64,000 nucleotides of DNA from NCBI RefSeq assembly GCF_014873145.1, contig NZ_JADBEK010000001.1:5146001-5210000 (forward strand), written 5' to 3'. A program made the translations under genes and the position numbers. The notes beneath the pieces were generated by a model. That model made no database searches. It had not been told where the DNA came from and worked only from the letters and a program-made list of their open reading frames with translations. Source of the DNA: Nonomuraea angiospora (GTDB taxonomy: Bacteria; Actinomycetota; Actinomycetes; Streptosporangiales; Streptosporangiaceae). This document shows positions 39,239-61,358 of the stretch, piece by piece (within the stretch, counting starts at the first letter, position 1; every line of letters starts with the position of its first letter).

Positions 39239-40867
39239 GTGTTCATTGTGTTCGTGAGACGCCGCCGTCCGACTCTGGCCGGAGAGATGCTGATCCTGCA
39301 ACTGGCCATCGTCCTAATGGTCCTGTTCGCCGTCGGTGCCATCTCGCTGGCTCAGTCCGCGGCGACGTTCGACCGCGTCGAGGGACGGCGGGTGACCGCG
39401 CTGGCCGAGCAGCTCGCCTGGAACCCGCTCGTACGCGCCCAGATCGGCCGGCCGGCGCCCGGCGAGGTGCTCGCCCCGCTGGTGCACTCGACGCTGACCC
39501 AGTCCGGCGTCACGTCGGTCACCGTGGCCGACGCGAGCGGAAAGATCATCAGCTCGACCGACACCACCGTCGTCGGGGCCGCGCTGCCGCTGGGCGACCC
39601 CGGCGTCGCCCGGGCGCGGGGCTGGTCCGGTCACCTGGTGGTCGACGGGGCGCCCGAGGTCGCCGCCCAGGTTCCCGTGCTGAGCGACGCCCCCGCCGAC
39701 CATGGCGCCCACCTCGGGACGGTGATGATCGGCGTGGCCGCCCCCACGGTGTGGGAACGGCTGGTCGGCGCCTCCTCGTACCTGCTGACCTACCTCGGCG
39801 TCGCGGTCGCGCTCGGCGGCGCCGGGTCGTGGCTGCTGGCCAGGCGGATCAAACGCCAGACCCTCGGCATGGAGCCGCGCGAGATCGCCGGCCTGACCGA
39901 GCACCGCGAGGCCATGCTGCACGGCATCGCCGAAGGCGTGGTCGCGCTGGACCCGCAGCACCGGCTCACCATGGTCAACGACATGGGCAGGACGCTGCTC
40001 GACCTCCCCGACCACTGCGTCGGCATGAGCCTGACCGCGCTCGGCGTCCAGGGCCGCCTGTACGACGTGCTGAGCGGCGCCGACGAGGCCCACGACGAGA
40101 TCGCCCTGCACCGGGGCCGCGTGCTGGTCATGAACCGCATGATGATCGACAAGGACGGTCGCCGCCTCGGCTCGGTCACCACCCTGCGCGACCGCACCGA
40201 GCTCGCCCAGCTCGAACGCGAGCTCGGCTCCTTCCGCAGCTCGACCGAGTTGCTGCGGGCTCAGGCGCACGAGTTCGCCAACCAGCTCCACGTCATCTCC
40301 GGGCTGATCCAGGTCAGGGAGCACGACGAGGTCGTCCGCTACATCCGGGCGATCCGCGAGCACCGCGAGTCGCTCGACCTGAGCCTCAGCAGCCGCGTCC
40401 GCGACACCTCCGTCGCCGCGCTGCTCATGGCCAAATCCTCCCTCGCCGCCGAACGCCGCGTCGAGCTGCGCCTGTCAGGACGCACCGCCCTGGGCCGGCT
40501 CGACCCCCTGGACGCCGCGGACGTGGCCACCGTGACCGGCAACCTCGTCGACAACGCCATCGACGCCGCCTGCGGCAGCGGCGAGCCGGCCTGGGTGGAG
40601 GTGGAGCTGCGCCAGGACACCTCCAGCGTCGAGATCGTCGTCCGCGACTCCGGCCCCGGCGTCGCGCCCGAGCTCGCCCATGAGGTCTTCACCCGGGGCT
40701 TCACCACGAAAGCCGCCCGAGGCGGCGAACGCGGCATCGGCCTGGCGCTCACCCAGCTCGTCTGCCGCCGCCGCGGCGGCGAGGTCGCGGTGACCAACAC
40801 CGACGACGGCGCCATGTTCACCGCCCGCATGTCCGTCGGCCGCCTGGCGATGGGGGTATCCCGATGA
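39239..40867 (+). CDS. CitA/DctS-type sensor histidine kinase
   Basis: 542 aa. Membrane helices at about 17-38 and 180-203 enclose an extracytoplasmic PAS-like sensor (sCache) domain with TSVTVADASGKIISSTDTT. Then a cytoplasmic PAS (MLHGIAEGVVALDPQHRLTM), an atypical H-box of the CitA family (RAQAHEFANQLHVISGLIQV; His in HEFxN) and a HATPase (GNLVDNAIDAAC, DSGPGVAPEL, GERGIGLALTQLVC). It senses a di- or tricarboxylate and drives the downstream regulator, which it overlaps by 4 bp. Alternative GTG starts lie within the first seven codons. Confidence 0.92.
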   Translation: MFIVFVRRRRPTLAGEMLILQLAIVLMVLFAVGAISLAQSAATFDRVEGRRVTALAEQLAWNPLVRAQIGRPAPGEVLAPLVHSTLTQSGVTSVTVADASGKIISSTDTTVVGAALPLGDPGVARARGWSGHLVVDGAPEVAAQVPVLSDAPADHGAHLGTVMIGVAAPTVWERLVGASSYLLTYLGVAVALGGAGSWLLARRIKRQTLGMEPREIAGLTEHREAMLHGIAEGVVALDPQHRLTMVNDMGRTLLDLPDHCVGMSLTALGVQGRLYDVLSGADEAHDEIALHRGRVLVMNRMMIDKDGRRLGSVTTLRDRTELAQLERELGSFRSSTELLRAQAHEFANQLHVISGLIQVREHDEVVRYIRAIREHRESLDLSLSSRVRDTSVAALLMAKSSLAAERRVELRLSGRTALGRLDPLDAADVATVTGNLVDNAIDAACGSGEPAWVEVELRQDTSSVEIVVRDSGPGVAPELAHEVFTRGFTTKAARGGERGIGLALTQLVCRRRGGEVAVTNTDDGAMFTARMSVGRLAMGVSR

Positions 40868-41541
40868 TCGACGTACTGGTCGTGGACGACGACTTCATGG
40901 TCGCCAGGGTCAACAGCGGCTTCGTCAACCAGGTCGAGGGCTTCCGGGTGCTCGGCACCGCCGGCTCCGGCGAGCAGGCCCTGGAGCGCGTCGCCGAGCT
41001 CCAGCCCGACCTGGTGCTGCTCGATCTGTACCTGCCCGACGTCTTCGGCCTGGACGTCATCACCCGGATGCGCGCCGCGGGGCACGACTGCGACGTCATC
41101 GTGATCAGCGCCGCCCGCGAGCTCGACGCGGTACGCGGGGCCGCCCGCCGGGGCGTCAGCGACTACCTGCTCAAGCCGTTCGACGTCGACGACCTGCGCG
41201 TCCGGCTGGAGCGCTACGCCGCCCGGCGCGCCGGCCTGGGCAGCACCGTCATCACCAGCCAGGCCGACGTCGACCGGCTCCTGTCCGGGACGGGCTCGGC
41301 GATGCCCGTCACGCTGCCCAAGGGCATGAGCGTGGAGACGGCCGAACTGGTCAAGCGCGCGCTGCGGGAGAGCGGCGGCACGCTGTCGGCCACCGAGTGC
41401 GCCGCCCAGGTGGGCGTCTCCCGGGTCAGCGCCCGCCGCTACCTCGAACACCTGACCGCGATCGGCCAGGTCGAGGTCTCCCTGCGTTACGGCGGCGCCG
41501 GCCGCCCGGAACGCCGCTACCAGTGGCACCGCCCGGCGTGA
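40864..41541 (+). CDS. CitB/DcuR-type response regulator
   Basis: 225 aa. Receiver: VLVVDDDFMVARVNSG, Asp in LVLLDLYLPDVFGLDV, Ser in VIVISAARELDAV and Lys in SDYLLKPFDVDDL. The C-terminal DNA-binding domain is the CitB-family HTH (TLSATECAAQVGVSRVSARRYLEHL). ATGA overlap with the kinase shows a coupled pair. Its predicted target is the divergent tctCBA operon, in the standard arrangement for these systems. Confidence 0.93.
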   Translation: MIDVLVVDDDFMVARVNSGFVNQVEGFRVLGTAGSGEQALERVAELQPDLVLLDLYLPDVFGLDVITRMRAAGHDCDVIVISAARELDAVRGAARRGVSDYLLKPFDVDDLRVRLERYAARRAGLGSTVITSQADVDRLLSGTGSAMPVTLPKGMSVETAELVKRALRESGGTLSATECAAQVGVSRVSARRYLEHLTAIGQVEVSLRYGGAGRPERRYQWHRPA

Positions 41542-44272: not shown

Positions 44273-45547
44273 TCAGTGAGAAGCAACGGCGGGCGTCCCC
44301 TGCGGGAACAGGCCGTCGAACACCGCGACCCGGTCGAAGGACATCGCGCGGGCGCGGGCGCGGAGCTCCAGGTCCTGCCGTTCGGCGGCGGGCAGGTCGA
44401 GGACCACCCGGTCCACGGCCGCGATGAGACCGGCGATATCTCCGGGTTCGATGACGACGGCGGTGTCACCGACCGCCTCGAGGGTCCCGCCCGTCGTGGT
44501 GGTGACGATCGGCCCGCCGCCGGAGAGCATCTTCTCGGCCAGCGCGATGCCGAACGTCTCCACGAACTCGGGCTCGGGCTTGGTGGGCAGCACGTAGGCC
44601 GCGCAGCCGCGCATGAGCAGCGGCTTCTCCTGGTCGTCGACGTCGGTGAAGAAGACCACCCGGTCGTCGCCCGCAGCCGCCGCCCGCGCCTGCTCCAGCG
44701 CCGGGCCGGTGCCGACGACGGCCAGTTTCACCCGCGACCGGCAGCGCATCCGGCCGAAGGCGGCCAGCAGGTCGTGGACCCCCTTGGCCCGGGTCACGCG
44801 GGACAGGAACAGGATGTATCCGTCGCGCTCCAGGCCGCGTCGGGCGAGCGCGGCGTCCACCTGGGCCGGGTCCAGGTCGAGGAAGGCGGCGGAGTCGATC
44901 GGCGGGTAGCTGACGGTGACACGGCGCCGGCACTGTTCGGCGAACGTGGTGCCGCAGTGGGCGTCCACCTGCTCGGCCGAGGCGACGATCTCCTCCCGGG
45001 TGTACTCGGAGACCGCCACGACCTCGTCGTTGGCCAGGAAGGTGGTGAACAGCACGGTCGCCGCGCCGAACCGGCCTTCCCGCAGGCACGAGCGGATCAC
45101 GTTGGTGACGTCGGAGCCGACGGCCTTCGCGATGGTGTGGACGTCCGGCGCGAACCCGGCCGCCCGCGCGGCCGCGACCGCGTCCACGACCACCGCGGTG
45201 TGCGGGGCGAGGTACATGGACAGGCAGGTCGTGCGTAACGGCTCGGCGAGCAGCTCGACGAGGCGGCCGGTGAGCCCGGCCTGGTGGCGCCCGTCGGGCA
45301 CCCGGTAGTCACCGACCGGCTCCGGCCGCTCCACGGTGATCCCGGCGCTGTACGGCAGCAGCCGGTCCAGCGGCTTGAGCGGCAGCCCGGCCGCCTGCAG
45401 CGTCGGGATCGGCCAGGTCAGCAGCCGTACGTCATCGAACCCGCGGGTCAGCGCCACCTCGGCGAGGTTGCGGGCTTCGCCGGAGTGGCCGCAGATGACC
45501 GGGTCGGCCCTGACCACGATGACGAGACGGCGACGGGGGTGGGTCAT
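44273..45547 (-). CDS. GT4-type glycosyltransferase
   Basis: 424 aa. GT-B fold: N-terminal domain RLVIVVRADPVICGHSGEARNL; C-terminal donor domain DGYILFLSRVTRAKGVHDLLAAF, VKLAVVGTGPALEQARA and the nucleotide-sugar signature EPEFVETFGIALAEKMLSGG then PIVTTTTGGTLEAVGD (E-x7-E type). ATG 45547 overlaps the GH92 stop as TGATG, so it is coupled to the mannosidase upstream. Retaining GT4 enzymes often transfer mannose or glucose. The donor and acceptor are unknown. No membrane segment. Confidence 0.85.
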   Translation of the reverse strand: MTHPRRRLVIVVRADPVICGHSGEARNLAEVALTRGFDDVRLLTWPIPTLQAAGLPLKPLDRLLPYSAGITVERPEPVGDYRVPDGRHQAGLTGRLVELLAEPLRTTCLSMYLAPHTAVVVDAVAAARAAGFAPDVHTIAKAVGSDVTNVIRSCLREGRFGAATVLFTTFLANDEVVAVSEYTREEIVASAEQVDAHCGTTFAEQCRRRVTVSYPPIDSAAFLDLDPAQVDAALARRGLERDGYILFLSRVTRAKGVHDLLAAFGRMRCRSRVKLAVVGTGPALEQARAAAAGDDRVVFFTDVDDQEKPLLMRGCAAYVLPTKPEPEFVETFGIALAEKMLSGGGPIVTTTTGGTLEAVGDTAVVIEPGDIAGLIAAVDRVVLDLPAAERQDLELRARARAMSFDRVAVFDGLFPQGTPAVASH

Positions 45548-47772
45548 CACGCTTCCTCCGGTGTCGCGGGCGGATCGGACAGGGACGGCGGGCGGATCCC
45601 CCGGCCCCACGCCGACGGCTCCGGCCCCAGCCGCAGGTGCAACCGGCCGCCCCGGTGCACGGTGGCGGCGCTCAGGTGGGTCGCGTGCAGGGGTTCGCCG
45701 TTGAGGGTCGCCGACTGTACGTAATGTGCCGGCGGGTCGTGATCGAGGCCGTCGACGCCGATCGGGGTCTCGCGGAGCCCGCTGGTCTCGATGACGAACT
45801 CGTTGCCGCCGGCCCGGAGCACCGCCCGTTCGAAGGCGGGCGCGTTGACCAGGAACAGGTTCTGGCCGGCGACCGGGAACAGGCCCAGCGACGCCCAGAC
45901 GTACCACGAGCTCAGGCCGCCGGAGTCGTCGTTACCGGGCAGCCCGCCGGGACCGGTGCCGAACTGCCAGGTCAGCGCCGAGTGCACCACCTGGGCCGTG
46001 CGGTCGGGCCGGCCCGCGTAGTGGTAGGCCCACGGCGCCTCCATGTCGGGCTCGTTGTTCAGCCCCTCGAACCGGTTGAGGGCGTAACCGGCCGCCATCT
46101 CCGCCGTGCGCGGGCGCCGGCCGGGCTGCGTCACCGGTGCGGCGCCGAAGCCGAAGAACCGGTCCAGCTTGTCGATGAAGGCCGCGTCGCCGCCGGCCAG
46201 GGCGATCCTCGCGGCCATGTCGTGCAGCAGCCTGAACGAGTAGTTCCACTTGCCGCCCTCGTAGAACTCCGAGTCGCGCAGCAGCCCCGTGCCCGGGTCG
46301 AAGGCGTTGGACCAGTGACGGCTGCGGTCCTCGAGGTCGGCGGCGAGGCGCCGGTCGTTCAGCGCCCGGGCGACCTGTGCCGTGCAGTGGTGGGCGTAGG
46401 CGAGGTCGAGGGTGTGGGTGATGGGGTGCACCACCCCGTGCTCGAAGAAGTCCTCGCCGTACATCCGGCGCAGGTCGTCGACCATGTGGACGAGCGCCCA
46501 GTTCCAGTCCAGGCCCGCCCAGCCGAGCGCGTGGGCGTCCGCCAGCGCGGTGTGCGCGAGCGCGCTGGCCTGGCGGAAGAACCGGTCGGCCCCGCGGGAC
46601 ATCCGGTAGCCGATCGGGAAGTTGCCCTCTTCCTCGCAGACCCGGATCAGCGACTCCAGCAGGTCCGCGGCCCGGTCGGGGGCGATGGCCGCGAGCAGCG
46701 GCAGCTGGGTCTTGTAGATGTCCCACATGGTGCACACGTCGAACGCGAACGGCCCGGGGGTCGGCCAGAACGGGCTCTCGTCGTCGGCGACGCACGGCTT
46801 GATCAGCGCGTGGTAGAGCGCCGTCGCGAACACTGTCCGGCGGGCCGGCGTGCCGCCCTCGACCTGGACCCGGTCGAGGTGATCGGCCCAGCGGGCGCGG
46901 GTCCTGGCGCGTACCGCGTCGAACGCCGGCCGCCCCTGCCCGCACTCGCGCTCCAGGTTGTCGCGCGCCTGGTCGCACCCGCGCAGCGAGAAGCCCAGCC
47001 GGACCTCGATGGTCTGCCCCGGCGCGGCCGGACCCATGTAGAGCATGCCGAAGGGGCGCAGCGTGGTGTGCCGGATGCTGTCGAAGTCGAGGCGGGTGCC
47101 GCCGTCGATGAGCCGCCGGTCGTACCAGAGCATCTGCCGCCAGCCCGGGCTGTCGACGTCCACGACCACCGACAGCGGGACGCCCTCCATCACCACCGTG
47201 CCCTGGGTCCGCCCGTGCCCCATGCTCTCCACCTGGGCCCGCAGCGGCACCGTACGGCCGAGCTCGATGTCCAGGCCGCCGCAGGACAGGTCGATCACCA
47301 CCCGGGCGCTGCTGTGCTGCGGGAAGGTGTACCGGTGCACGGCGACCTTGGCGCCCACGGTGAGCTCGCAGCGGACCCCGGTGTCCAGGGTGGCCGCGTA
47401 GTAGCCCGCCTCTGCCACCTCGTCGTGCAGCTCCCAGGCCTCCCCCAGCACGTCCAGCGGCTGCACCATCGGCGTGACCCGGACGTAGTTGTAGTACTTG
47501 CGGATCGCGCCGGTGCCGGACTGCTGGAAGTGGGTGAAACCGGACGCCTGCAGCCGCCCCAGCATCTCCTCGGGCACGCCTTCGGTGTTCTTCGTGTATC
47601 TCCCGTACCCCGTCGGGTACGCGCCGGAGTAGGCACAGGCCGACACCATGCCGAGCGGCGAGGTGGCCCCCGGGTGGGTGTTGCCCACCTGCGGTTTCGG
47701 CCACCACCAAGTGGCGGCCAGACCACGTGCCCGGGGCAGGTCGGTCGCCGAGGTGCCGATGAATGGATCAAC
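45547..47772 (-). CDS. GH92-family alpha-mannosidase, start codon unclear
   Basis: Conserved GH92 sequence begins VDPFIGTSATDLPRARG then WWWPKPQVGNTHPGATSPLG, from about 47772. No ATG, GTG or TTG lies in this frame between an upstream TAG (7 codons before) and GTG 47688, so a product from GTG 47688 (713 aa) would lack the first conserved strand. The core has the family features: RYTKNTEGVPEEMLGRLQAS, FDVCTMWDIYKTQLPLLAAI, and near the end GLPGNDDSGGLSSWYVWASL then GLFPVAGQNLF. No signal peptide, so it may act inside the cell or the true N-terminus is missing. It is coupled to the glycosyltransferase gene downstream. Confidence 0.85.
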   Translation of the reverse strand, partial: VDPFIGTSATDLPRARGLAATWWWPKPQVGNTHPGATSPLGMVSACAYSGAYPTGYGRYTKNTEGVPEEMLGRLQASGFTHFQQSGTGAIRKYYNYVRVTPMVQPLDVLGEAWELHDEVAEAGYYAATLDTGVRCELTVGAKVAVHRYTFPQHSSARVVIDLSCGGLDIELGRTVPLRAQVESMGHGRTQGTVVMEGVPLSVVVDVDSPGWRQMLWYDRRLIDGGTRLDFDSIRHTTLRPFGMLYMGPAAPGQTIEVRLGFSLRGCDQARDNLERECGQGRPAFDAVRARTRARWADHLDRVQVEGGTPARRTVFATALYHALIKPCVADDESPFWPTPGPFAFDVCTMWDIYKTQLPLLAAIAPDRAADLLESLIRVCEEEGNFPIGYRMSRGADRFFRQASALAHTALADAHALGWAGLDWNWALVHMVDDLRRMYGEDFFEHGVVHPITHTLDLAYAHHCTAQVARALNDRRLAADLEDRSRHWSNAFDPGTGLLRDSEFYEGGKWNYSFRLLHDMAARIALAGGDAAFIDKLDRFFGFGAAPVTQPGRRPRTAEMAAGYALNRFEGLNNEPDMEAPWAYHYAGRPDRTAQVVHSALTWQFGTGPGGLPGNDDSGGLSSWYVWASLGLFPVAGQNLFLVNAPAFERAVLRAGGNEFVIETSGLRETPIGVDGLDHDPPAHYVQSATLNGEPLHATHLSAATVHRGGRLHLRLGPEPSAWGRGIRPPSLSDPPATPEEA

Positions 47773-47890: not shown

Positions 47891-48496
47891 TCACTGGCCC
47901 GCCTTGTCCAGGAAGTCCCTCGTGGAGGTGGTGTAGGCCGAGCAGAGCAGGCTGCCCAGCCGCGTCGCCCCGCCGTCGCCGAGCCGCCGGGTCGGCACGC
48001 CCATGGCGTTCACGCTGCGCTCCACCGCCACGCTGGAGACCGCGACCACCGTGTCACCGCGCCGGTCGACCCAGCGGAACGCCTCCCGGAGCAGCGCGCG
48101 GGCGAGCGGCCCGAACCCCACCGTCGCCTTGTGGGACCAGGCGCCCGCGGTGGCCAGCCGGCTGAGCTCCCACACGGCCGGATCGCATGGGGCCCGGCCG
48201 CCGCGTAACGCCTCGGAGAAGACGTCGCGGAGCATGTACGGACCGACGGTCGGGAGCAGCCGGCAGCACCCCGTGACCTCCTGGCGGTCCTCCATGTAAC
48301 CGATCACGTAGACCGGGTCGCAGTCGTCGTAGAAGTCGCGCTCCCTGCCGTGCAGGCTTTCGACGTCCCAGCGCAGGCGTTCGTAGAACACCGTGTGGCG
48401 CAGGCGGAACATGCCGTCGAGCAGCCACGCCGGCAACTCGCCCGCTCCGCCGACCACGATCCGTTGCGCGCGTCTCTCCCCCGGTGAATCGCCCAC
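47891..48496 (-). CDS. luxI: LuxI-type acyl-homoserine-lactone synthase
   Basis: 201 aa, exactly LuxI size. All eight residues invariant in LuxI/LasI/EsaI-type synthases are present in order: Arg33 and Phe37 (FRLRHTVFYERLRW), Trp43, Asp54 and Asp57 (GRERDFYDD), Arg79 (TGCCRLLPTVGPYML), Glu110 and Arg113 (AVWELSRLA). The family uses SAM and acyl-ACP or acyl-CoA to make N-acyl-homoserine lactones. The position that is Thr in many 3-oxo-AHL makers looks to be Ala here (VVAVSS), so an unsubstituted acyl chain is a tentative guess. GTG 48496 follows GGAGGG. No LuxR-type AHL receptor is seen in this window. Such genes are characteristic of Proteobacteria and rare in actinomycetes; codon use is nevertheless typical of its neighbours. 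Confidence 0.9.
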   Translation of the reverse strand: MGDSPGERRAQRIVVGGAGELPAWLLDGMFRLRHTVFYERLRWDVESLHGRERDFYDDCDPVYVIGYMEDRQEVTGCCRLLPTVGPYMLRDVFSEALRGGRAPCDPAVWELSRLATAGAWSHKATVGFGPLARALLREAFRWVDRRGDTVVAVSSVAVERSVNAMGVPTRRLGDGGATRLGSLLCSAYTTSTRDFLDKAGQ

Positions 48497-48562
48497 GAGT
48501 GCCCTCCGCGAATGATCGGGATCCCCTTTTCTGTGTTGTTCGCGGGAGCGGGGTCTCTGGAT

Positions 48563-49387
48563 TCAGCGCACGGAGCAGACCGCGTCCTCGATCACCCGCG
48601 TCACGGCGTCCGGGTGCGAGATGAGCGCGAGGTGGGAGCCGCCCGGGAACTCGGTGACCTTCGAGCCCGCCCGCCTGGCCATCGCCCGCTGCGAGGCCGG
48701 CACGATGATCCGGTCGCCGGTGGCGATGAAGTACCAGGACGGGATCTTCTTCCACGCCGCGGCCTTCGACGGCGTCGTGAACGCGACCGTCGAGGCGGCC
48801 CGCTGGGAGGCCCACAGCCGGTTGGCCATCGCGGGGGGCAGGTCGGGGGCGAAGAAGCGCAGGAACACCGCCCGCTTCAGGTACAGGTCGGCCGCTTCGC
48901 CGCTCGATCCGGGGTAGGACGAGCGGTCGTAGAGGGTGGCCGGGTCGCCGCCGAGCGCCGAGCCGGAGCCGCTGAGCTGCCCGGTGGTCTCGCCGACGTC
49001 CGGCGCCGCGGCGCTCACATAGACCAGCGCCTTGACGTCCGGGTCGCCGGCGGCGGCATTCGTGATCACCGAGCCGCCGTAGGAGTGCCCCACGAGCACG
49101 ACCGGCCCCGAGAGGGTGCGCAGGAAGTCCCGTACGGTCTGCGCGTCACCGGACAGGCCGCGCAGCGGGTTGGCCACGGCCCGCACGGCGTGACCCGCCC
49201 GCTGCAGAGCCTGCACCTCCCCGCTCCAGCTTGAGGTGTCGGCCCATGCCCCGTGCACCAGCACGACCGTCGCCCTGGCCGCGCCCGGCGAGGGGCACGG
49301 CCCGTGCCCCGCCGCCGCCGCGCCGGGCGCCGGTACGACGGCCGCGGCCGACAGGAGAAGGACGCACGAAGCTCGGCATCTCGTCAT
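48563..49387 (-). CDS. secreted alpha/beta hydrolase
   Basis: 274 aa from ATG 49387 (GGAGGGG upstream). Signal peptide ASCVLLLSAAAVVPAPGAAAA. Core: ATVVLVHGAWADTSSWSGEV (oxyanion), nucleophile in PVVLVGHSYGGSVITNAA, Asp in YFIATGDRIIVPAS and His in GGSHLALISHPDAV. It belongs to the salicylate-esterase/RsbQ-like alpha/beta hydrolase group. It lies 66 bp upstream of luxI on the same strand; some enzymes of this fold hydrolyse acyl-homoserine lactones, but nothing in the sequence itself shows that activity. Confidence 0.87.
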   Translation of the reverse strand: MTRCRASCVLLLSAAAVVPAPGAAAAGHGPCPSPGAARATVVLVHGAWADTSSWSGEVQALQRAGHAVRAVANPLRGLSGDAQTVRDFLRTLSGPVVLVGHSYGGSVITNAAAGDPDVKALVYVSAAAPDVGETTGQLSGSGSALGGDPATLYDRSSYPGSSGEAADLYLKRAVFLRFFAPDLPPAMANRLWASQRAASTVAFTTPSKAAAWKKIPSWYFIATGDRIIVPASQRAMARRAGSKVTEFPGGSHLALISHPDAVTRVIEDAVCSVR

Positions 49388-49501
49388 GTCGTCGCACCCC
49401 TCCTCGGAATGGGCCCCTTTCATTCACGCTGACATCCGCACCACCCGAACAAGGTCATGAAAGCGACAAACAGGGACTAAATCGTGCGGGGTATCTGGCG
49501 G

Positions 49502-51598
49502 TCACCGGTCCGGGGTGAGGTTGAGCGGGGTGGTGATGCGCAGGTTCCAGTCGAGGCCGGACGGCGCGAGTGAGTCGTCGATCCAGGCGATCACCGGGTC
49601 GCCCTCGGCGTTCATGGTCATGGCAAGTCGTTCGCCGAAGCCGTTCCCGTTCCTGGACACCGGGATGCTCTCGCAGCGGCTGCCGGTGCAGACGGCGAGC
49701 ATGAGCCGCTGGTGTTCGAGGCTCTCGAACGCGACCACCGGGCGCCCCGCGCGGTCCACGGCCAGCACCGGGGCCGCCTGGTACCCGCTTCCCGCGCCCA
49801 GCGTGCGCACGTCGGCCTGGGCACAGTCGGGGGTGCGGCAGTCGAGCAGTCTGGTCGCCTGGTCGCGCAGGTCCCGGTAGGCGATGGCGGGGCGGCCGTC
49901 GGGGCGCACCGCCATGGCCAGGCCGGCGTTCCAGAGCCGGTGGGGAGCCGGCGGGGCGGGGGGCACGGGGCTGGTCACGCTCGGCCGCTGGCAGGCGGCG
50001 TCCGGGCAGGAGATCACGTGGATCTGGCCGGTGGCGGAGTCGTACCGGGCGGCGACGGGGCGGTCCCCGGGGCCGACGGCGGCGACCAGGTCGTGCTCCA
50101 TGGACGAGTACCCGGTGGCCTCCAGGCGGGCGACCTGCCTGGGCTCCGGGCGCGCGCAGCTCGGGTCCGCGCAGAAGATGAAGGAGACGAGGTCGTGGGC
50201 CGGCTGGTCACCGCCCGCCGGATCCGGTTCGGCGTAGGCCACGACCGGACCGCCGTCCCGCCGCACGGCCAGCGCCACCCCCACCGACTCCGGCGGCCTG
50301 CGCGTCGTCGCGACGGCCCCGCTGCCGCGTACGCACGCGGTCGCCTCGCAGGTGAGCAGTTCGAGCCCCCCGGAGGTCCAGGTGGTCAGGAGGAGACGCC
50401 CGTCGGGCAGCCGCGCGCTGGCCGCGCCCGCCTGCCACCGGGTGCCGGAATCGTCCGGCTCGGCCCACGCGAAGCTCGCCTTCCGGCACGAGGGGTCGGC
50501 GCAGGCCAGCAGGCTGGAGTCGTCCTCGAAGCCGTCCATCACCACGACCGGCTCCCCGTCGCGGCCGAGGTGCAGGTCCTGCAGGTCGAGGGGGCGCAGC
50601 TCCGGTTCGCGGTCGCGGTCACGGGCGGGGACGGGCAGCTCCGTCACGGTCGTCTCGGCGACCTCCGGCCACCCGAACGGATTGACCAGCACGACCCCGC
50701 TGAACAGCAGTCCGGGCAGCAGCGCCGCCGGCAGGAGGCCGGGCCGCACCGGGCGCGGCGCAGGGCCGTCGGGCAGGCCGTGCGCCAGGTCCGAGTCGAC
50801 CACCTCGGTGCGCCAGGCCATGTTGTGCAGGAACTGGCGCGCGACCACGGCGGCCTGGACGGGCGTGACGGCCAGCGCCAGCACGGTCCCGGCCAGGCCC
50901 CATCCGAGGGTGGCGAGAGGGCCGGGAAGCAGGCGCAGCCCCGACTCGAGAGCCCACGCCGCCGCACCGGGAACGAGGAAGACCCCGAAGGCCAGCGTCA
51001 ACGCGGTCGGCAGGAAGCTCAGCTCGGTCATGCGGTAGGCGCGGCGGATCGAGCCCAGCCCCGAGAGGCCGTGCAGCAGAACGCCGGGCACGGCCAGCAG
51101 GGCCGGCATCGCCGCGTACGCGGCCACCACCAGCCCCACCCGGACCAGCCAATGCTGATCGGTCATCATCAGCACCCCGGCTCCCGCGGCCCCGGCCGCC
51201 CCGGACACCAGGAGCAGGACCAGGAGGGGCGGCAGCCGCCGCACCGTCGCCCGCAGCGCCTCGACCGGCGGGATCCGCCGGTCCACCAGGTGACCCGTGG
51301 CGATGATCACGGTCGCGGGGAACACCACGATCTCCGCGGCGAGCGCGACCGCCACCGGTACGAGCGTCCAGATGCGCAGCGGGACATCGGACGTCCCGAT
51401 CAGCTGGAACCGCCCGTTGACCACCGCCGCCGAGTCGCCTGCCGTCACCGTCAGCGCCAGCAGGCACAGCGTGGCGAGCGGCACGTGGACCAGCACCCCG
51501 GGCAGCGCGAGCCGCACCAGGTGCCGCCCGGCGTCCAGATAGCTCCGGAACGGCACGCCGTCCATGCGCAGCCGTTCGACGTGCTCCATCGAGCTCAC
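49502..51598 (-). CDS. membrane protein with C-terminal cysteine-paired beta-propeller
   Basis: 698 aa from GTG 51598 (ATG 51589 is also possible). The N-terminal half holds about six membrane helices (about 30-52, 76-100, 122-145, 152-175, 195-220 and 225-250), resembling a six-helix DUF-type integral domain; a seventh segment (about 288-310) leads out of the membrane. Residues about 335-690 are repeating blades of the type DGRPVVAFESLEHQRLMLAV, most carrying a C-x4-C pair (CADPSC, CEATAC, CADPSC, CPDAAC, CRTPDC, CTGSRC). This reads as a six-bladed extracytoplasmic propeller with a disulfide in each blade. Function unknown. Confidence 0.72.
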   Translation of the reverse strand: MSSMEHVERLRMDGVPFRSYLDAGRHLVRLALPGVLVHVPLATLCLLALTVTAGDSAAVVNGRFQLIGTSDVPLRIWTLVPVAVALAAEIVVFPATVIIATGHLVDRRIPPVEALRATVRRLPPLLVLLLVSGAAGAAGAGVLMMTDQHWLVRVGLVVAAYAAMPALLAVPGVLLHGLSGLGSIRRAYRMTELSFLPTALTLAFGVFLVPGAAAWALESGLRLLPGPLATLGWGLAGTVLALAVTPVQAAVVARQFLHNMAWRTEVVDSDLAHGLPDGPAPRPVRPGLLPAALLPGLLFSGVVLVNPFGWPEVAETTVTELPVPARDRDREPELRPLDLQDLHLGRDGEPVVVMDGFEDDSSLLACADPSCRKASFAWAEPDDSGTRWQAGAASARLPDGRLLLTTWTSGGLELLTCEATACVRGSGAVATTRRPPESVGVALAVRRDGGPVVAYAEPDPAGGDQPAHDLVSFIFCADPSCARPEPRQVARLEATGYSSMEHDLVAAVGPGDRPVAARYDSATGQIHVISCPDAACQRPSVTSPVPPAPPAPHRLWNAGLAMAVRPDGRPAIAYRDLRDQATRLLDCRTPDCAQADVRTLGAGSGYQAAPVLAVDRAGRPVVAFESLEHQRLMLAVCTGSRCESIPVSRNGNGFGERLAMTMNAEGDPVIAWIDDSLAPSGLDWNLRITTPLNLTPDR

Positions 51599-51664: not shown

Positions 51665-52792
51665 TCAGAGAGCGAGCGCGCGGACCGCCTCCTCGTCCAC
51701 GCCGATCCCCAGGCCGGGGCCGGTGGGCACGTGGGCGACGCCGCCGGTGACCGTGATGACCGGATCCGTGGCGTAGGGGCTGGTGATGAACTGCCGGCCG
51801 TTGAGGTCGACCGGCGTGTCCACGCCGAACGCGGCGAACAGGTGGAGCGAGGCGGCCAGCCCGATGTCGGACTCGGTGAGGCCGGAGCCCATGATCGCCA
51901 GGCCGCAGTCCTCGGCGAGCTGGCACTGGCGCAGCGCCAGGGTCAGCCCGCCGCAGCGCTGCACCTTGGCGACGGCGACGTCGATGGCGTCGAGCCGGAC
52001 GAACGTCGCCAGGTCGCTCGGATGGCGCAGGCTCTCGTCCACGGCCACCGGGATGGGGCTGGCGTCACGCAGGCGGCGCAGCCCGGCGACGTCGTTGGAC
52101 GGCAGCGGCTGCTCGAAGACGGCCACGTCCAGGCCGGTCAGGCGCCGGGCCACCCGGAGCGCGGCGGCGGCCGTGTAGCCCTGGTTGGCGTCCACCCAGA
52201 GCACCGCGTCGGGCGCGGCGGCGCGCACGGCCTCCACGATGGCCACGTCCTCGTCCTCGGTGTGCAGGCCGACCTTGACCTTGACGTGGCGGTAGCCGAG
52301 CGCGCGGCCCTCGGCCACCGAGTCCGCGGCCACGGCGGCCGACTCGGTGGCCACGATCCAGGCCAGCTCGATGGTGTCGCGCCTGCGCCGGCCCCACAGC
52401 TCGCCGAGGGACAGGCCGAGGCTGCGGGCGTAGGCGTCGTGGCAGGCCACGTCCACCGCCGCGCGCGCCAGCGGCATGCCGATCGAGAAGCCCTTGCTGA
52501 TCGTACGGTCGAAGGCGCGGCAGAGCCCGTCCAGGTCCCACAGCGGACGGCCGACGGCCGCCGGGGCCAGGTAGTTGTCGATGGTGGAGACGATGGACTC
52601 GGTGGTCTCGTACGTCCAGGAGGGGATCGGGGTGGCCTCGCCCCACCCGATGGCCCCGTCGTCGGCGGTGACCTTCACCAGGACCCTGACGGCCGGCCGG
52701 CCGCCCTGGACGACGGACCCGCCCGCCACGGCGAAGTCGCGCAGCGAGGGCAGGCCCACGGTGAAGGTCTCGACGCGTGCTATCCGGTTCAC
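51665..52792 (-). CDS. enolase-superfamily enzyme (mandelate racemase/muconate lactonizing type)
   Basis: 375 aa from GTG 52792. The alpha/beta barrel has the KxK acid/base pair KVKVG (Lys171, Lys173), metal ligands Asp201 (LWVDANQG), Glu227 (FEQPL) and Asp252 (AVDES), and the opposite Lys276 (VAKVQRCGG). This is the MLE-like subgroup: cycloisomerase, dipeptide epimerase, OSBS or sugar-acid lactone/acid chemistry. Substrate is unresolved. It follows the hydroxyacid dehydrogenase stop by 4 bp and is the last gene of the operon. Confidence 0.88.
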   Translation of the reverse strand: MNRIARVETFTVGLPSLRDFAVAGGSVVQGGRPAVRVLVKVTADDGAIGWGEATPIPSWTYETTESIVSTIDNYLAPAAVGRPLWDLDGLCRAFDRTISKGFSIGMPLARAAVDVACHDAYARSLGLSLGELWGRRRRDTIELAWIVATESAAVAADSVAEGRALGYRHVKVKVGLHTEDEDVAIVEAVRAAAPDAVLWVDANQGYTAAAALRVARRLTGLDVAVFEQPLPSNDVAGLRRLRDASPIPVAVDESLRHPSDLATFVRLDAIDVAVAKVQRCGGLTLALRQCQLAEDCGLAIMGSGLTESDIGLAASLHLFAAFGVDTPVDLNGRQFITSPYATDPVITVTGGVAHVPTGPGLGIGVDEEAVRALAL

Positions 52793-52796
52793 GTGA

Positions 52797-53768
52797 TCAG
52801 TACCATTCGGACTTGTCGACCAGATTGATCAGTTCGCGCCCGGCCACGAAGCGGCGGGCGTTCTCCAGCAGTACGGCGAAGCGCCGCTCCTCGCCATGCG
52901 GCCCCACGCCCCCCACGTGCGGGGTGATGAGCACGTCCGGCCGCCGCCAGAGCGGGTGATCGGGCGGAAGCGGCTCGGTCTCGAAGACGTCCAGGGCCGC
53001 GCCGGCCAGGCGTCCCGCGGCCAGGGCGGCCGTCAGGTCGTCGAGCCGCAGGATGGGCCCGCGGCCGATGTTGACGACGTACGCCCCGGGCTTGGCCAGC
53101 GCCAGCCGCCGCGCGTCCAGCAGGCCCTCGGTGGCCGGGGTGTGCGGAACGGTCAGGATGACCAGGTCCGCCTCGGGAAGCAGCCGGTCGAGCGCGTCGG
53201 CCGGCAGCACCTCGGCGAAGCCCGGCACGGGCCCGCCGCGCCGGGCGTCCACGCCCACGACCCTGGTGCCGAACGCCGCCAGCAGCCTGCCGACCTCGGC
53301 CCCGACCGCGCCCACCCCCACCACCAGGGCGGTGGCCTCGCCCAGGGAGAGCACGGCGCCGGGGTCCCAGTCGGGCGCCCAGCTCGCGCGGGCCTGTTCG
53401 CGGGCGTACCTGGGCAGGCCCCTGGCCAGCGCGAGCACGAGCGCCAGCGCGTGCGCGGCCACGTGGTCGGTGTAGGTGTCGCGCATGTTGGTGACCTGCA
53501 CGGGGTGCGCGACCAGGGCCGGATGGTAGAAACCCGGAGGCGGCCCGGCCTGCGGGGCCTGCAGCCAGCGCAGCCGTCCGGCGTGCGCCAGCAGGTCCGC
53601 GGGCAGCGTGCCGTAGGCGGCGTCGGCCTCCGCCAGCGCCCGCGCCGCCTCCTCGCGCGTCTCCGGCTGGAGGACGACGAGCTCCGGCACCGCCTGCTCC
53701 AGCCGGGCCCGCCAGCCCGCGGTGGCCGGATCGTGCGGCGGCAGCAGCACCAGGGTCGCTGCGCTCAC
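52797..53768 (-). CDS. D-isomer-specific 2-hydroxyacid dehydrogenase
   Basis: 323 aa. NAD-binding Rossmann motif VVGVGAVGAEVG (149-160); catalytic Arg in VNIGRGPILRLDD, Glu in DVFETEPLPPDHPLW and His in VLITPHVGGVGPHG. This fits the GhrA-like hydroxypyruvate/glyoxylate reductase branch. GTG 53768 overlaps the stop of a second dehydrogenase of the same family as GTGA. It is cytoplasmic and probably oxidises or reduces a sugar-acid product in this catabolic operon. Confidence 0.9.
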   Translation of the reverse strand: MSAATLVLLPPHDPATAGWRARLEQAVPELVVLQPETREEAARALAEADAAYGTLPADLLAHAGRLRWLQAPQAGPPPGFYHPALVAHPVQVTNMRDTYTDHVAAHALALVLALARGLPRYAREQARASWAPDWDPGAVLSLGEATALVVGVGAVGAEVGRLLAAFGTRVVGVDARRGGPVPGFAEVLPADALDRLLPEADLVILTVPHTPATEGLLDARRLALAKPGAYVVNIGRGPILRLDDLTAALAAGRLAGAALDVFETEPLPPDHPLWRRPDVLITPHVGGVGPHGEERRFAVLLENARRFVAGRELINLVDKSEWY

Positions 53769-54751
53769 GCCCTCCTCGCCAGTCCGGACTCGGTGATCTC
53801 GTACAGCAGCGGCTCCCCCGCGACGTAGCGGTCGAGCTCCTCGGCCATCGCCTGCCCGTGGCGGCGCCGCTCGAAGCCCAGGCTGCCCGCCACGTGCGGG
53901 GTGACGACGATGTTGGGCATGGTGAACAGCGGCGACCCGGCGACGGGCGGCTCCGGGTCGGTGACGTCTAGGACGGCGAACAGGTCGGTCCGCCGGCTCA
54001 GCACGTCCACGAGCGCGGCCTCGTCGACGAGGCCGCCGCGCGCCGTGTTGACCAGGGTGGCGTCGGGCTTCATCGACTCCAGCAGCTCGGTGCCGACCAG
54101 GCGCTGCGTCTCAGGGGTGAGCGGCGAGTGCAGGCTGACCACGTCGGAGGTGGCGAACAGCTCCTTCAGGCCGACGAGGCGCACGCCGAGCGCCGCCGCC
54201 TGCTCCGGGTCGGCGTACGGGTCGTAGGCCTGCACGTCGAGGTGGTGATGGGCGAGCAGCCGCGCCGTGGCCCGGCCCGTGGCGCCGAGCGAGACCAGCC
54301 CGACCACCGCGTCATAGGCCCCGATCTCGGGTCCGCGCGGGGCGGTGGCCGCGGCGGCGCGCGCGGCCAGCACGTAGCGCCAGCCGTGCTTGAGCGCGTA
54401 CAGGATCTGCGAGAGGGCGAACTCGGCGACCGGCTCGGCGTTGGCCGTGGCCGCCGAGGTGACCCGCACTCCCCTGGCCCACATCTCCGGCGTGACCATT
54501 CCCTTGATGGAGCCCGCGCCGTACAGCACCAGCGAGAGCTTGGGCGCGGCGGCGAGCAGGCCGGCGTCCAGCTTGGGCGCCCCCCAGCCGGTCACCAGCA
54601 CGTCCAGGTCGGCGAGCACGTCCGGGGTGAGCCGGTCGGCGGTGAGCGGGGGCGAGGCGATGGTCAGGTGCCGCTCGATCGCCTCCCTGGCCTGGGGGCC
54701 GTAGACGTCGTCGAAGCGGTTCGGGTCCATCACGTACAGCCCGTTCAGCAT
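53765..54751 (-). CDS. D-isomer-specific 2-hydroxyacid dehydrogenase (second copy)
   Basis: 328 aa from ATG 54751, preceded by GGAGAGGCA. Motifs: VVGLVSLGATGRATA (a relaxed Rossmann loop, SLGATG for GxGxxG), catalytic Arg in LVNTARGGLVDE, Glu in LDVTDPEPPVAGSP and His in IVVTPHVAGSLGF. It differs clearly from its neighbour in sequence, so the two are not a recent duplication and may act on successive or different substrates. Its start lies inside the end of the preceding gene (7-bp overlap). Confidence 0.9.
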   Translation of the reverse strand: MLNGLYVMDPNRFDDVYGPQAREAIERHLTIASPPLTADRLTPDVLADLDVLVTGWGAPKLDAGLLAAAPKLSLVLYGAGSIKGMVTPEMWARGVRVTSAATANAEPVAEFALSQILYALKHGWRYVLAARAAAATAPRGPEIGAYDAVVGLVSLGATGRATARLLAHHHLDVQAYDPYADPEQAAALGVRLVGLKELFATSDVVSLHSPLTPETQRLVGTELLESMKPDATLVNTARGGLVDEAALVDVLSRRTDLFAVLDVTDPEPPVAGSPLFTMPNIVVTPHVAGSLGFERRRHGQAMAEELDRYVAGEPLLYEITESGLARRA

Positions 54752-55917
54752 TGCCTCTCCTTCACGCGAGCCGCCGCCCGCACGCTGGCCAGGCGGGCGG
54801 GTGAGCCCAGCCCGGCGTGGTAGTAACGTAGCTGCCGCGCTCCCCCTGCGACGAGGTCGGCGGCGAGTGCCGGGATCCGGGCGTGCCCGTCCTCCAGCAC
54901 GGTCAGGTTGGCGACGATGGGGGTCTCGGTGCGGCTCGCCGCGGCCTTCACCTGGGCCAGTGCCGCCTCCTCCGGGCCCCAGCACTTGAGCACGTACGCG
55001 TCGACCGGCGCGTCGAAGGAGGCCAGGTCGATCCCCACGTCGGGGCCGGTGACCTGCGGGTCGTCGGTGGCCATGAGCAGCAGCTCGCGACCGCCGGCCG
55101 GCACCGCCGCGGCGCGGACCAGGCCGGCGATGACCCGGCCGCGATGGTCGTAGACGGCCTGGGCACGCTCGCGGCCGAGCGCGTCGCCCAGGCTCTCCCC
55201 GGCCGGGACGCCCTGCTGGAGCTCCCCGTCCACGGCGGCGCGCACGTCGCGCGCCAGCTCCTCGACGTCCAGGCCGCGCTCGGCCAGCCCCCTCCGGCAG
55301 GCGGGGCAGAGGCAGAGCGACAGCAGCGCCCTGCCGCAGGCGGACAGGTGGGCGCCGGAGGTCTTCTCGTGATGGCCGGCGTGCTCGGCGCCCAGCCAGC
55401 CGCACGCCTCCAGCATCAGCGCGGGCACGTCGTACTGCTCGCAGACCTCGCTCACGAGGGTGATCGCGTAGTCGTGGACGGCGGGCTGGGCGGGACAGAG
55501 CGCGTAGGGGTAGGACTCGCCGTAGGCGTTCCTGACCGTCAGGTCGGGCGCCTCGCGGCCCAGCACCGAGGAGTGCGTGAGCACGATCCAGGCCTCGGCC
55601 CGCAGCCCGGCCCCCGCCAGCGCGGCCAGCGCCGTCCCGAACCGGTCCTCGTCCGGCACCCCCCAGCTCGGCGCGTACGGCTTGAGCCGCCCGCGCCAGC
55701 GGTCCGGGCGCAGCCGGAAGTAGGCCGCCGCGTGATCGGCCTGCACGATGCGGTGGCGCGGATGCCACGCGGTGGTGGCCCGGACCGAGTGGTAGGCCGC
55801 CTGGAGGGTCACCGTGCTCACCCCGAGCCCGGCGATGCGCTCGGCCGCCGCGGGGTCGCCCACGAGGTCCCAGGTGTAGGCGAACGCGCCGTGCCTCGTC
55901 TTCAAGCGGACTTTCAC
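54745..55917 (-). CDS. unknown protein, probable TIM-barrel enzyme of the sugar locus
   Basis: 390 aa from GTG 55917, which overlaps the permease stop as GTGA. It starts LKTRHGAFAYTWDLVGDPAAA and reads as alternating strands and helices (GVSTVTLQAAYHSV, LRAEAWIVLTHSSVLGRE, YDVPALMLEACGWLG, PVDAYVLKCWGPEEAALAQV), consistent with a TIM barrel. A conserved-looking HAGHHEKTSGAHLSACG is followed by LCLCPACRRGL, a CxCxxC cluster that could bind metal. I do not recognise a named family. Position between transporter and dehydrogenases suggests a role in processing the imported compound. Confidence 0.6.
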   Translation of the reverse strand: MKVRLKTRHGAFAYTWDLVGDPAAAERIAGLGVSTVTLQAAYHSVRATTAWHPRHRIVQADHAAAYFRLRPDRWRGRLKPYAPSWGVPDEDRFGTALAALAGAGLRAEAWIVLTHSSVLGREAPDLTVRNAYGESYPYALCPAQPAVHDYAITLVSEVCEQYDVPALMLEACGWLGAEHAGHHEKTSGAHLSACGRALLSLCLCPACRRGLAERGLDVEELARDVRAAVDGELQQGVPAGESLGDALGRERAQAVYDHRGRVIAGLVRAAAVPAGGRELLLMATDDPQVTGPDVGIDLASFDAPVDAYVLKCWGPEEAALAQVKAAASRTETPIVANLTVLEDGHARIPALAADLVAGGARQLRYYHAGLGSPARLASVRAAARVKERQC

Positions 55918-56786
55918 CCCTTCGTGGCGCCGGCCAGGCCGCGCGTGAAGTAGTTCTGGAAGAACAGGAAGATCGCCAGCATCGGCAGGAACGAGATCGT
56001 CATCCCGGCGGCGAACCCGGTCCAGTCGGTGGCGTGCTCGCCCTGGAAGGAGAGCATCCCGACGGCGAGGTTCTGCAGGTCGGGCTGGCCGAGCGTGAAC
56101 ACCAGCGGGATGTTGAACTCGTTCCAGCTGCTGATGAACTGGAAGATGACCACCACCGCGATGACCGGTTTGGCCAGCGGGAGGATGAGGCCGAACGTCT
56201 TGAGGAAGCCGGCCCCGTCGAGCTTGGCCGCCTCGAACAGGTCGCTCGGGACGCTGGAGAAGAACCCGACGAACAGCAGGACGTAGAGCGCGCCCGCGCC
56301 GCCGGACATGGCCAGGATGACGCCGGCCCGCGTGTTCAGCAGGCCGAGGTTCTCGATCAGCACGAACTGCGGGACGATGATCGAGGCGACCGGGATGAAC
56401 AGGGTCCCCACGATCATCCGGTAGAGCAGGGTACGGCCGGGGAACTCGTACCTGGCCAGCACATAGCCGCACAGGGCCGCCTTGACCAGCTCGATCAGGG
56501 TCGAGACGACCGAGTAGAGCACCGTGTTGAAGAAGTATCCGGAGAACCCGGCGTTGACCCAGGCGCGGACGAAGTTGTCGAAGTTCAGCTGGTCGGGCAG
56601 GAGGCTCGCGCCGCTGGTGAACATCCCGGCCTGGGTCTTGAACGCGGCCGAGATCGTCCACAGGAACGGATAGACCCACACGAGCCCGATGACCGCCAGG
56701 ATCGGCAGGGCGATGAGGTTGGCCCGCGTCCTGTGGCTGCGCCGGGCGGCCTGGTCGATCCCGGTGGTCTTGGTGATCGCCGCCAT
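55914..56786 (-). CDS. carbohydrate ABC transporter permease (MalG type)
   Basis: 290 aa, six membrane helices. The EAA loop for the ATPase is DLFEAAKLDGAGFLKTFGLILPLAKP, with ASIIVPQFVLIENLGLLNT before it and FQFISSWNEFNIPLVF after it. ATG 56786 overlaps the preceding permease stop (TGATG). It is the inner-membrane partner of the permease upstream. No ATP-binding subunit is encoded in this window, so a shared MsiK-type ATPase is expected, as usual in actinomycetes. Confidence 0.93.
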   Translation of the reverse strand: MAAITKTTGIDQAARRSHRTRANLIALPILAVIGLVWVYPFLWTISAAFKTQAGMFTSGASLLPDQLNFDNFVRAWVNAGFSGYFFNTVLYSVVSTLIELVKAALCGYVLARYEFPGRTLLYRMIVGTLFIPVASIIVPQFVLIENLGLLNTRAGVILAMSGGAGALYVLLFVGFFSSVPSDLFEAAKLDGAGFLKTFGLILPLAKPVIAVVVIFQFISSWNEFNIPLVFTLGQPDLQNLAVGMLSFQGEHATDWTGFAAGMTISFLPMLAIFLFFQNYFTRGLAGATKG

Positions 56787-57790
56787 CAGACGCCGTACTC
56801 CTTCCTGAGCCGCTGGGCCCGGCGGACCGCGACGCCCTGGGCGGAGACCAGGACGAAGGCGATGACGGAGAACAGCAGCGCCGCGGCCGAGGCGTAGCCG
56901 TAGGCGAACGGCACCGAGCCGAAGGCGTTCTGGTAGATGAAGTAGGACACCACGTACGTGCTGGTGCCCGGGCCGCCCGCGGTGAGGGTGACGACCAGCC
57001 CGAAGACGTGCATGGCGTTGACGATGCCGAGCAGGGCGATGATCACGGCGACCGGCCTGATCATCGGCAGCGTGATGCGGGTGAGCTTCTTCCACTCGCC
57101 CGCGCCGTCGATGGCGGCGGCCTCGTAGACCTCCTCCGGCACGTTCTGCAGCGCCGCGATCCAGTAGATCATGTACTGGCCGAAGATCTGCCAGACGGAG
57201 ACGAGCACGAGCACGAGCAGCGCGCTCCACCGGTTGGCGAACACGTCGAACCCCTGGTCGACCAGGCCGAGGTCACGCAGGATGGCGTTCAGGGCGCCGT
57301 TGGACGGGTTGAGCAGGTAGGTGAAGACCAGGCCCGCCATGGCGACGGGGATGATGAGCGGCGCGAAGAACAGGGTCCGGAAGAACCGCTTGCCGCGCAG
57401 CCACTTGCGGGTGAGCACGATCGCCGCCAGCAGCGAGATCGGGAGCTTGATGACGGTGGTCAGCAGGGCGAAGATCAGCGTGTTGACCACCGAGAGCCAG
57501 AACAGCGGGTCGACCAGGATCGAGCCGTAGTTGTCCGCCCCGACGAAGTTGTCGATCGGGCCGATGCCCGACCAGTCGAAGAAGGAGTAGTAGATCGTCG
57601 CGGCCAGCGGCCAGAGGGTGAAGCCGAGGTAGAGCAGCAGGAAGGGGGCCAGGAAGACGACCAGCCAGACCCTGTCGAAGCCGCGGACGCGCTCGCGGGA
57701 GTGATCGGCGCGTTCGGGCGCCCGCTCGGCGGGCGACCGGTCCCTGTCCGTCACCCTCTCCCTGCGTGGGGCGGGGGCGGTGGTTGTCAT
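56786..57790 (-). CDS. carbohydrate ABC transporter permease (MalF/UgpA type)
   Basis: 334 aa from ATG 57790 with GAGG upstream. A charged 40-residue cytoplasmic N-terminus precedes six helices. EAA loop: EVYEAAAIDGAGEWKKLTRITLPMIRP. FLAPFLLLYLGFTLWPLAATI is the usual first helix. It works with the following permease and the lipoprotein encoded upstream. Confidence 0.93.
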   Translation of the reverse strand: MTTTAPAPRRERVTDRDRSPAERAPERADHSRERVRGFDRVWLVVFLAPFLLLYLGFTLWPLAATIYYSFFDWSGIGPIDNFVGADNYGSILVDPLFWLSVVNTLIFALLTTVIKLPISLLAAIVLTRKWLRGKRFFRTLFFAPLIIPVAMAGLVFTYLLNPSNGALNAILRDLGLVDQGFDVFANRWSALLVLVLVSVWQIFGQYMIYWIAALQNVPEEVYEAAAIDGAGEWKKLTRITLPMIRPVAVIIALLGIVNAMHVFGLVVTLTAGGPGTSTYVVSYFIYQNAFGSVPFAYGYASAAALLFSVIAFVLVSAQGVAVRRAQRLRKEYGV

Positions 57791-57815
57791 GGATGTCCTC
57801 ACGACGGAGAAGGGG

Positions 57816-59267: not shown

Positions 59268-59310
59268 GAAGCCCTCCCGAGAGACGGAGGTCAGAGGGGT
59301 GCCGGGCATC

Positions 59311-59326
59311 GGGTAAGCGCTTGCCC
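59311..59326. promoter_or_regulatory. LacI operator 1, upstream of the binding-protein gene
   Basis: GGGTAAGCGCTTGCCC, with an AAGCGCTT core and one mismatched pair, lies 44-59 bp before the lipoprotein start. It is the site closest to the leftward operon. The same core recurs at three other places of the locus. Confidence 0.65.
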
Positions 59327-59378
59327 GAGAGGTGGGTCCGAGAGTAACCCCGGTCACAGGCCGATTCAAGACTTGTGA

Positions 59379-59390
59379 GAAAGCGGTTTC
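59379..59390. promoter_or_regulatory. LacI operator 2 in the divergent region
   Basis: GAAAGCGGTTTC differs from the perfect palindrome GAAAGCGCTTTC, seen at 61326, by a single base. It sits midway between the divergent lipoprotein and isomerase genes, 85 bp before the isomerase start. Confidence 0.65.
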
Positions 59391-59442
59391 AGATCGATGC
59401 TCGGTCATGACACCTGTCCGTCGGTGGCCTTTGCTGGTCTCT

Positions 59443-59454
59443 ACAAGCGCTTTC
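59443..59454. promoter_or_regulatory. LacI operator 3, upstream of the isomerase gene
   Basis: ACAAGCGCTTTC has the full AAGCGCTTTC core and two changes in the left end. It is 20 bp before the isomerase GTG, where binding would overlap the ribosome site or early transcript. Confidence 0.6.
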
Positions 59455-59474
59455 AGAGAAATTCGGGAGTACGT

Positions 59475-60251: not shown

Positions 60252-60280
60252 CGGGCGCTCCACGGGGGGAGGAGGAGCGG

Positions 60281-61291: not shown

Positions 61292-61325
61292 CAAGTGCGG
61301 CCGGCGGCGGGAACCCTGTTCTTCT

Positions 61326-61337
61326 GAAAGCGCTTTC
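61326..61337. promoter_or_regulatory. LacI operator 4, perfect palindrome before the DUF2264 gene
   Basis: GAAAGCGCTTTC is perfectly symmetric, centred 27 bp upstream of the hydrolase GTG and 35 bp after the lacI stop. It is the best example of the motif and implies a separate regulated promoter for the hydrolase gene. Confidence 0.75.
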
Positions 61338-61358
61338 CCAGCGGAGGAGAGAGAACCC

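Follow-up and report, generated by a model that had tools for sequence, protein, structure and literature searches.

A signal synthase of the kind found in proteobacteria is encoded in the genome of a soil actinomycete. The gene, from Nonomuraea angiospora, encodes a bona fide LuxI-family enzyme and belongs to a clade of its own within the Streptosporangiaceae. Acyl-homoserine lactones (AHLs) are signals known above all from Gram-negative bacteria. LuxI enzymes take an acyl group from its thioester, attach it to the amine of S-adenosylmethionine and then form the lactone ring. What is such an enzyme doing in Nonomuraea? We think it reasonably likely that it is a functional orphan AHL synthase with a promoter of its own, whose product acts outward or through an unfamiliar sensor.

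A LuxI-family enzyme in Nonomuraea

We analyzed a window of 64,000 nucleotides, to which all coordinates refer unless a locus is named. An earlier note on this DNA had described a 201-aa LuxI-type protein at 47891..48496. The protein is there, and its gene lies on the minus strand: the plus frame of 47891-48496 is broken by stops, while the minus frame is open throughout 201 aa and begins with a GTG at 48496. A GGAGGG at 48502..48507 on the same strand is the likely ribosome-binding site. All eight residues that the note had called invariant in LuxI synthases are in place (R33, F37, W43, D54, D57, R79, E110 and R113), as are the motifs CRLLPT and WELSR. In our alignment the eight residues are kept in all 15 intact Streptosporangiaceae LuxI proteins. 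Seven of them are invariant across 37 reference LuxI rows; at the remaining one, F37, 36 rows have F and one has Y.

The assignment to the LuxI family, also made in the note, is confirmed by profile, sequence and fold. The Pfam Autoind_synth model (PF00765), proposed there as a check, matches the protein with 91.1 bits (E 8.4e-26, cut-off 24). It is the best-scoring family, well ahead of PF13444 (24.8 bits, cut-off 22.4) and the FeeM model (17.0 bits, under its cut-off). The NCBIfam TraI models are not reached by the protein (NF052393, 97.1 against 250; NF010408, 100.4 against 292). The nearest solved chain by sequence is LasI (E 4.6e-26). We built an AlphaFold2 model (pLDDT 88.8, 15 sequences in the alignment) and searched the PDB with it: AHL synthases take ranks 1-12, with LasI first at a TM of 0.83, ordinary GNATs follow from rank 13 on, and the first FeeM structure appears at rank 22. 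From sequence and model together, the enzyme is predicted, with a high degree of confidence, to make an AHL.

The host is an actinomycete, as had been supposed, and both its named relatives and its rpoC identify it as Nonomuraea. Its genome is a single contig of 13.09 Mb, and its rpoC shares 99.1% identity with the rpoC of a N. jabiensis genome. The named relatives of the LuxI protein comprise ten from Nonomuraea (one of them a remnant), one from Streptosporangium and one from Sphaerisporangium; beyond these actinomycetes come three Gram-negative records.

Distribution and descent

The gene is no isolated case: it is one member of a patchy clade in Streptosporangiaceae with 15 intact copies. 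The host genome has one PF00765 gene. Among 98 relatives searched with this model there were 13 matches, 12 over the cut-off, all within the genus; across the family, 17 of 341 genomes match, of which 16 exceed the cut-off, with 5 of 68 genera represented. Intact luxI occurs in 11 of 54 Nonomuraea genomes (host included) and in four others: Sphaerisporangium corydalis (G254), Streptosporangium sp. KLBMP 9127 (G355), G352 and G333. Because remnants are found in 3 of the 54 Nonomuraea genomes and no luxI at all in 40, the gene is dispensable. The remnants, partial or frame-broken, lie at 9738-10196 of L024 (G048), 9871-10240 of L025 (G027) and 1811-2149 of L152 (G051), and each retains different parts of luxI.

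Outside the family the picture is sparse. We sampled the phylum evenly: of 396 Actinomycetota genomes, 9 match PF00765 at E up to 1e-3, 7 of them over the cut-off; leaving out the host, the numbers are 8 and 6. The only strong match is the host LuxI itself (90.7 bits), the others scoring at most 37.2. A sample of Pseudomonadota gave matches in 66 of 299 genomes, 59 over the cut-off. Five of the weak phylum matches (L046, L047, L050, L051 and L052) were scanned with Pfam, L048, L049, L053 and L054 being outside that scan. We rejected all five as LuxI, since FeeM or PF13444 fits them better than PF00765; for L051 and L052, with open frames of 330-360 aa, the PF13444 score is far better. PF13444/FeeM-type proteins of Actinomycetota could be taken for LuxI in looser HMM searches.

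Where did the clade come from? In a tree of 52 LuxI rows the 15 Streptosporangiaceae proteins form one group with support 100/100, on a stem of 1.58 changes per column. Its sister rows, at a fork supported 90/91, are Chitinolyticbacter, one proteobacterial metagenome-assembled genome (MAG) and two Panacagrimonas rows; LasI and TofI fall on the same side of the tree (99/99). The comparison with proteobacterial LuxI that had been called for thus sets the clade next to four Pseudomonadota rows, in a tree that holds LuxI rows only, without a non-LuxI outgroup, whose bootstrap is incompletely settled and in which G333 sits on a long branch. Omitted from it were L075 (a near-copy of L074), L078 and L079 (in-frame stops), L052 and L053 (GNATs), the second copies L038-L040 and L058-L061, and fetched loci lacking a match to the clade profile. 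The reference rows are skewed to strong matches, because the Pseudomonadota search yielded loci for 30 strong matches only, and the nearest relatives named here are those visible to the scan, because L038-L040 were found through their likeness to the clade. Judged by its place in the tree, the clade is of foreign origin, an old transfer standing beside the LuxI of Pseudomonadota.

Within the family, luxI distances partly mirror those of rpoC: a Mantel test gives r 0.54 (p 0.0016) across 11 Nonomuraea and r 0.44 (p 0.0002) across 14 genomes. We used rpoC as the species marker and dropped rpoB because it gave two domain matches in 21 of the 30 genomes searched, mostly Nonomuraea. One pair stands out: G352 and G355 (loci L042 and L043), from two genera, are 93.0% alike in luxI and 89.3% in rpoC, whereas in the remaining 90 of 91 genome pairs luxI is less alike than rpoC. 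This suggests that luxI has been transferred between genera within the family.

Receptor search, neighborhood and upstream element

A canonical LuxI has a LuxR partner with an autoinducer-binding domain (PF03472). The earlier note saw no AHL receptor in the window and proposed an orphan synthase; both statements extend to the whole genome, which has its one PF00765 gene and not a single PF03472 match at E up to 1e-3, near luxI or anywhere else. None of 14 other genomes (12 intact carriers and 2 with remnants; G352 and G333 were outside this search) has a PF03472 match over the cut-off, and the three partial matches seen there, at E 0.04-0.10, fall under it. Counting the host, 13 intact carriers show none at the cut-off. 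We are very confident that the host genome encodes no LuxR-type receptor. At the nearest loci outside the family a PF03472 LuxR adjoins luxI in 2 of 3, Chitinolyticbacter (on both sides) and the MAG; in Panacagrimonas the regulator preceding luxI matches GerE only. The plasmid relatives from Sulfuriferula and Nitratireductor have annotated LuxR-type genes near luxI, and none was seen beside Bradyrhizobium traI within the short stretch examined.

Nor does luxI have a fixed partner of another kind. Upstream it is flanked by an alpha/beta hydrolase gene (48563..49423, minus strand), identified by Pfam and synteny; of the other loci compared, only that of N. jabiensis keeps this gene next to luxI. 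Downstream lies a glycoside hydrolase family 92 gene (45547..47688, minus strand, by Pfam). A DNA search of the genus found the latter in at least 20 further Nonomuraea genomes, each without luxI in the same match, two such places having been read directly; some of these genomes hold luxI or a remnant elsewhere. Neighbors vary between Nonomuraea species, close sisters excepted. Comparing 15 loci with a simple gene caller, which called luxI in 11, we found no conserved operon partner: no other family occurs in more than 4.

Other features of the surroundings deserve mention. A 698-aa protein without a Pfam match (49502-51598, minus strand) is evolving fast, with a dN/dS of 0.75 and 85% identity to its N. 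jabiensis counterpart, most neighbors being at 93-99%. Positions 51665-63140 hold an apparent sugar-utilization cluster with an enolase-superfamily protein, two 2-hydroxyacid dehydrogenases, ABC permeases and a binding protein, a sugar-isomerase-like protein, a LacI regulator and DUF2264. A histidine kinase (sCache) and response regulator at 39248-41541 (plus strand) are without a counterpart in the 20-kb stretch of N. jabiensis used for comparison.

What does accompany luxI at most loci is a short upstream element. In the window it reads TCC-N15-GCGAACAA (48536..48561, minus strand), a likely promoter of luxI, since the same element with the same gap is found at other luxI loci. Its consensus, TCY-N15-RCGAAY, lies 65-77 bases upstream of the luxI start at 13 of 14 loci (G333 was outside the comparison), N. 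solani luxI being the one without it, and the upstream genes mostly differ among the loci that share it. Over the 28 pairs of 8 loci, the boxes have a pairwise identity of 0.92, compared with 0.49 for the spacer and 0.68 for luxI fourfold sites. In 2000 rounds of Markov-resampled upstream regions the element turned up in at most 2 of 14. These figures are descriptive and no test, because the pattern was derived from the same sequences. The shape of the element suggests a promoter. By eye, 8 of the 14 upstream regions also show an inverted repeat between element and start (GATCGGC, 5-6 bases, GCCG; for example L059 9637-9660), possibly an operator or an RNA hairpin; the window lacks it in that form.

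Function, alternatives and meaning

The following account best explains these findings. A LuxI gene of Pseudomonadota type would have entered the Streptosporangiaceae long ago, its LuxR partner now being absent. It would since have been inherited, lost and sometimes passed between genera as a small unit made of the coding sequence and its two-box promoter. Judged from fold and residues, the enzyme would join the acyl group of a thioester to the amine of S-adenosylmethionine, after which it would form the lactone ring. The lactone would act outward on other organisms, or inward via a sensor of another kind; these are the likeliest routes because no LuxR-type receptor was found. That it acts mainly outward we rate at a little below even chances.

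The acyl donor may differ from that of the classical enzymes. In PMC4234381, LasI residue 154 (position 9 of the motif) is tied to the use of acyl carrier protein (ACP), and a positive residue is expected there. We located this position from the LasI chain numbers, within a gap-free part of the LasI alignment, where it corresponds to residue 164 of the window's protein. Of the reference rows, 20 of 37 have Arg or Lys there and 17 have no basic residue; all 15 proteins of the clade have Ala or Gly. Because the ACP-linked arginine is missing across the whole clade, acyl-CoA or an unusual carrier may be the donor, and this one position hints as much. One could go further and imagine that a borrowed LuxI has become a new module, freed of ACP docking and using another acyl donor, with a host sigma factor or regulator acting on a mobile two-box promoter and a lactone read by a non-LuxR sensor or only by other organisms. 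We regard that full picture as rather unlikely.

Could the gene instead be a decaying relic, a transferred gene without a stable role that persists by chance, spreads occasionally and is often lost? Its scatter over Nonomuraea, the remnants and the lack of any neighbor conserved past sister species would fit. Substitution rates speak on both sides. Between the host and N. jabiensis luxI has a dN/dS of 0.27 (or 0.24 if the gene is called shorter), which lies within the 0.08-0.75 spanned by 15 flanking genes. For the 78 pairs that 13 luxI genes form, the median is 0.39 and the range 0.22-0.85, with 0.85 in the montanisoli-rhodomycinica pair. The ratios across pairs appear loose, as decay would have it, yet taken together they indicate that luxI of the clade is under selection. 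Against decay stand the value for N. jabiensis, the 15 intact copies with their eight residues and promoter-like boxes better conserved than spacer and fourfold sites. We consider it improbable.

It is a shade less credible still that the LuxI fold was kept while the reaction drifted to N-acyl transfer without lactone formation, as in FeeM, serving secondary metabolism and not signaling. The long stem of the clade, the change at the ACP-docking position in all 15 proteins and the weaker matches to PF13444 and FeeM are what such drift might leave behind. But FeeM/PF13444 acyltransferases are GNAT relatives with low PF00765 scores, whereas in Nonomuraea LuxI PF00765 is clearly best; FeeM structures rank behind twelve AHL-synthase entries, and every one of the eight AHL-synthase residues is kept.

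We also weighed a role in polysaccharide foraging, with luxI co-regulated with carbohydrate-active enzyme genes beside it. Such enzymes make up 5 of 26 nearest neighbors in 13 contexts; for the 9 contexts from Nonomuraea the figure is 5 of 18 (25 of the 26 were scanned, one was assigned from a homologue, and two tiny predicted genes were skipped). Among gene pairs drawn at random from carrier genomes, however, the count was 2 of 30, or 3 with a DUF4434 protein; with Fisher p of 0.16 and 0.06 for a pattern noticed after the fact, we dropped the claim and hold foraging to be very unlikely. Contamination or assembly error, which nothing favors beyond the foreign origin of luxI, is practically negligible given the single contig, the host-like GC3, a syntenic luxI in the N. 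jabiensis genome at 97% protein identity and 14 further intact copies in the family. The GC3 of luxI is 0.931 against a neighbor mean of 0.955, and 3 of 45 neighbors are lower. The earlier statement that codon use matches the neighbors is thus broadly right, with luxI at the low end; foreign origin is not shown by codon use alone.

How does the orphan synthase that we favor compare with known systems? LasI and TofI, which classically work with LuxR receptors, resemble the clade in family, length, fold, the eight catalytic residues and the side of the tree they share. They differ in having Arg at LasI 154, and no PF03472 partner was found for Nonomuraea LuxI. The nearest precedent comes from a myxobacterium: as described in PMC7862692, AgpI of Archangium gephyra is an orphan LuxI that makes C8- and C9-AHL when expressed in E. 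coli. Like Nonomuraea LuxI it lies outside the classical hosts, with no PF03472 receptor in the genome and no conserved neighborhood. Its gene has 57% GC in a genome of 69.4%, whereas Nonomuraea luxI has host-like GC and belongs to an entire clade with a two-box element of its own. A solo of the AgpI kind has no LuxR, LuxN or AinR receptor; here the LuxR type was covered, and none was found.

The earlier note spoke of a little-explored signaling system. AHLs, claimed LuxI solos and an orphan synthase are already in print (PMC13136126, PMC10883386, PMC7862692), but the clade itself we did not find in the open-access literature, subscription papers being mostly outside the scope of the search. 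PMC13136126 describes luxI genes of Actinomycetota that stand alone, with no autoinducer-binding LuxR; when rhdI of Rhodococcus kroppenstedtii was disrupted, the detected AHLs were lost. That gene, of 897 bp, adjoins iscS/mnmA/etf genes and encodes about 298 aa against the 201 aa of Nonomuraea LuxI, a comparison made by description only; the main text has no mention of Nonomuraea or Streptosporang-. Searching by HMM, PMC10883386 finds LuxI homologues throughout 2,336 Streptomyces species with just one or two exceptions, a breadth not matched by our 396-genome phylum sample at the Pfam cut-off, counts and not proteins being compared. A Nonomuraea paper that names homoserine lactone (PMC10676335) applies gamma-butyrolactone.

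The case for AHL production by filamentous actinomycetes has so far rested partly on genes that may come from other GNAT families. Because the LuxI of this clade is unmistakable and is found in collection strains, among them N. jabiensis DSM 45507, N. zeae DSM 100528 and N. thailandensis DSM 46694, expressing and deleting the gene can settle the question. A synthase with a probable promoter of its own and no LuxR-type receptor also raises a broader question: does a bacterium gain from a signal that it perhaps does not read itself?
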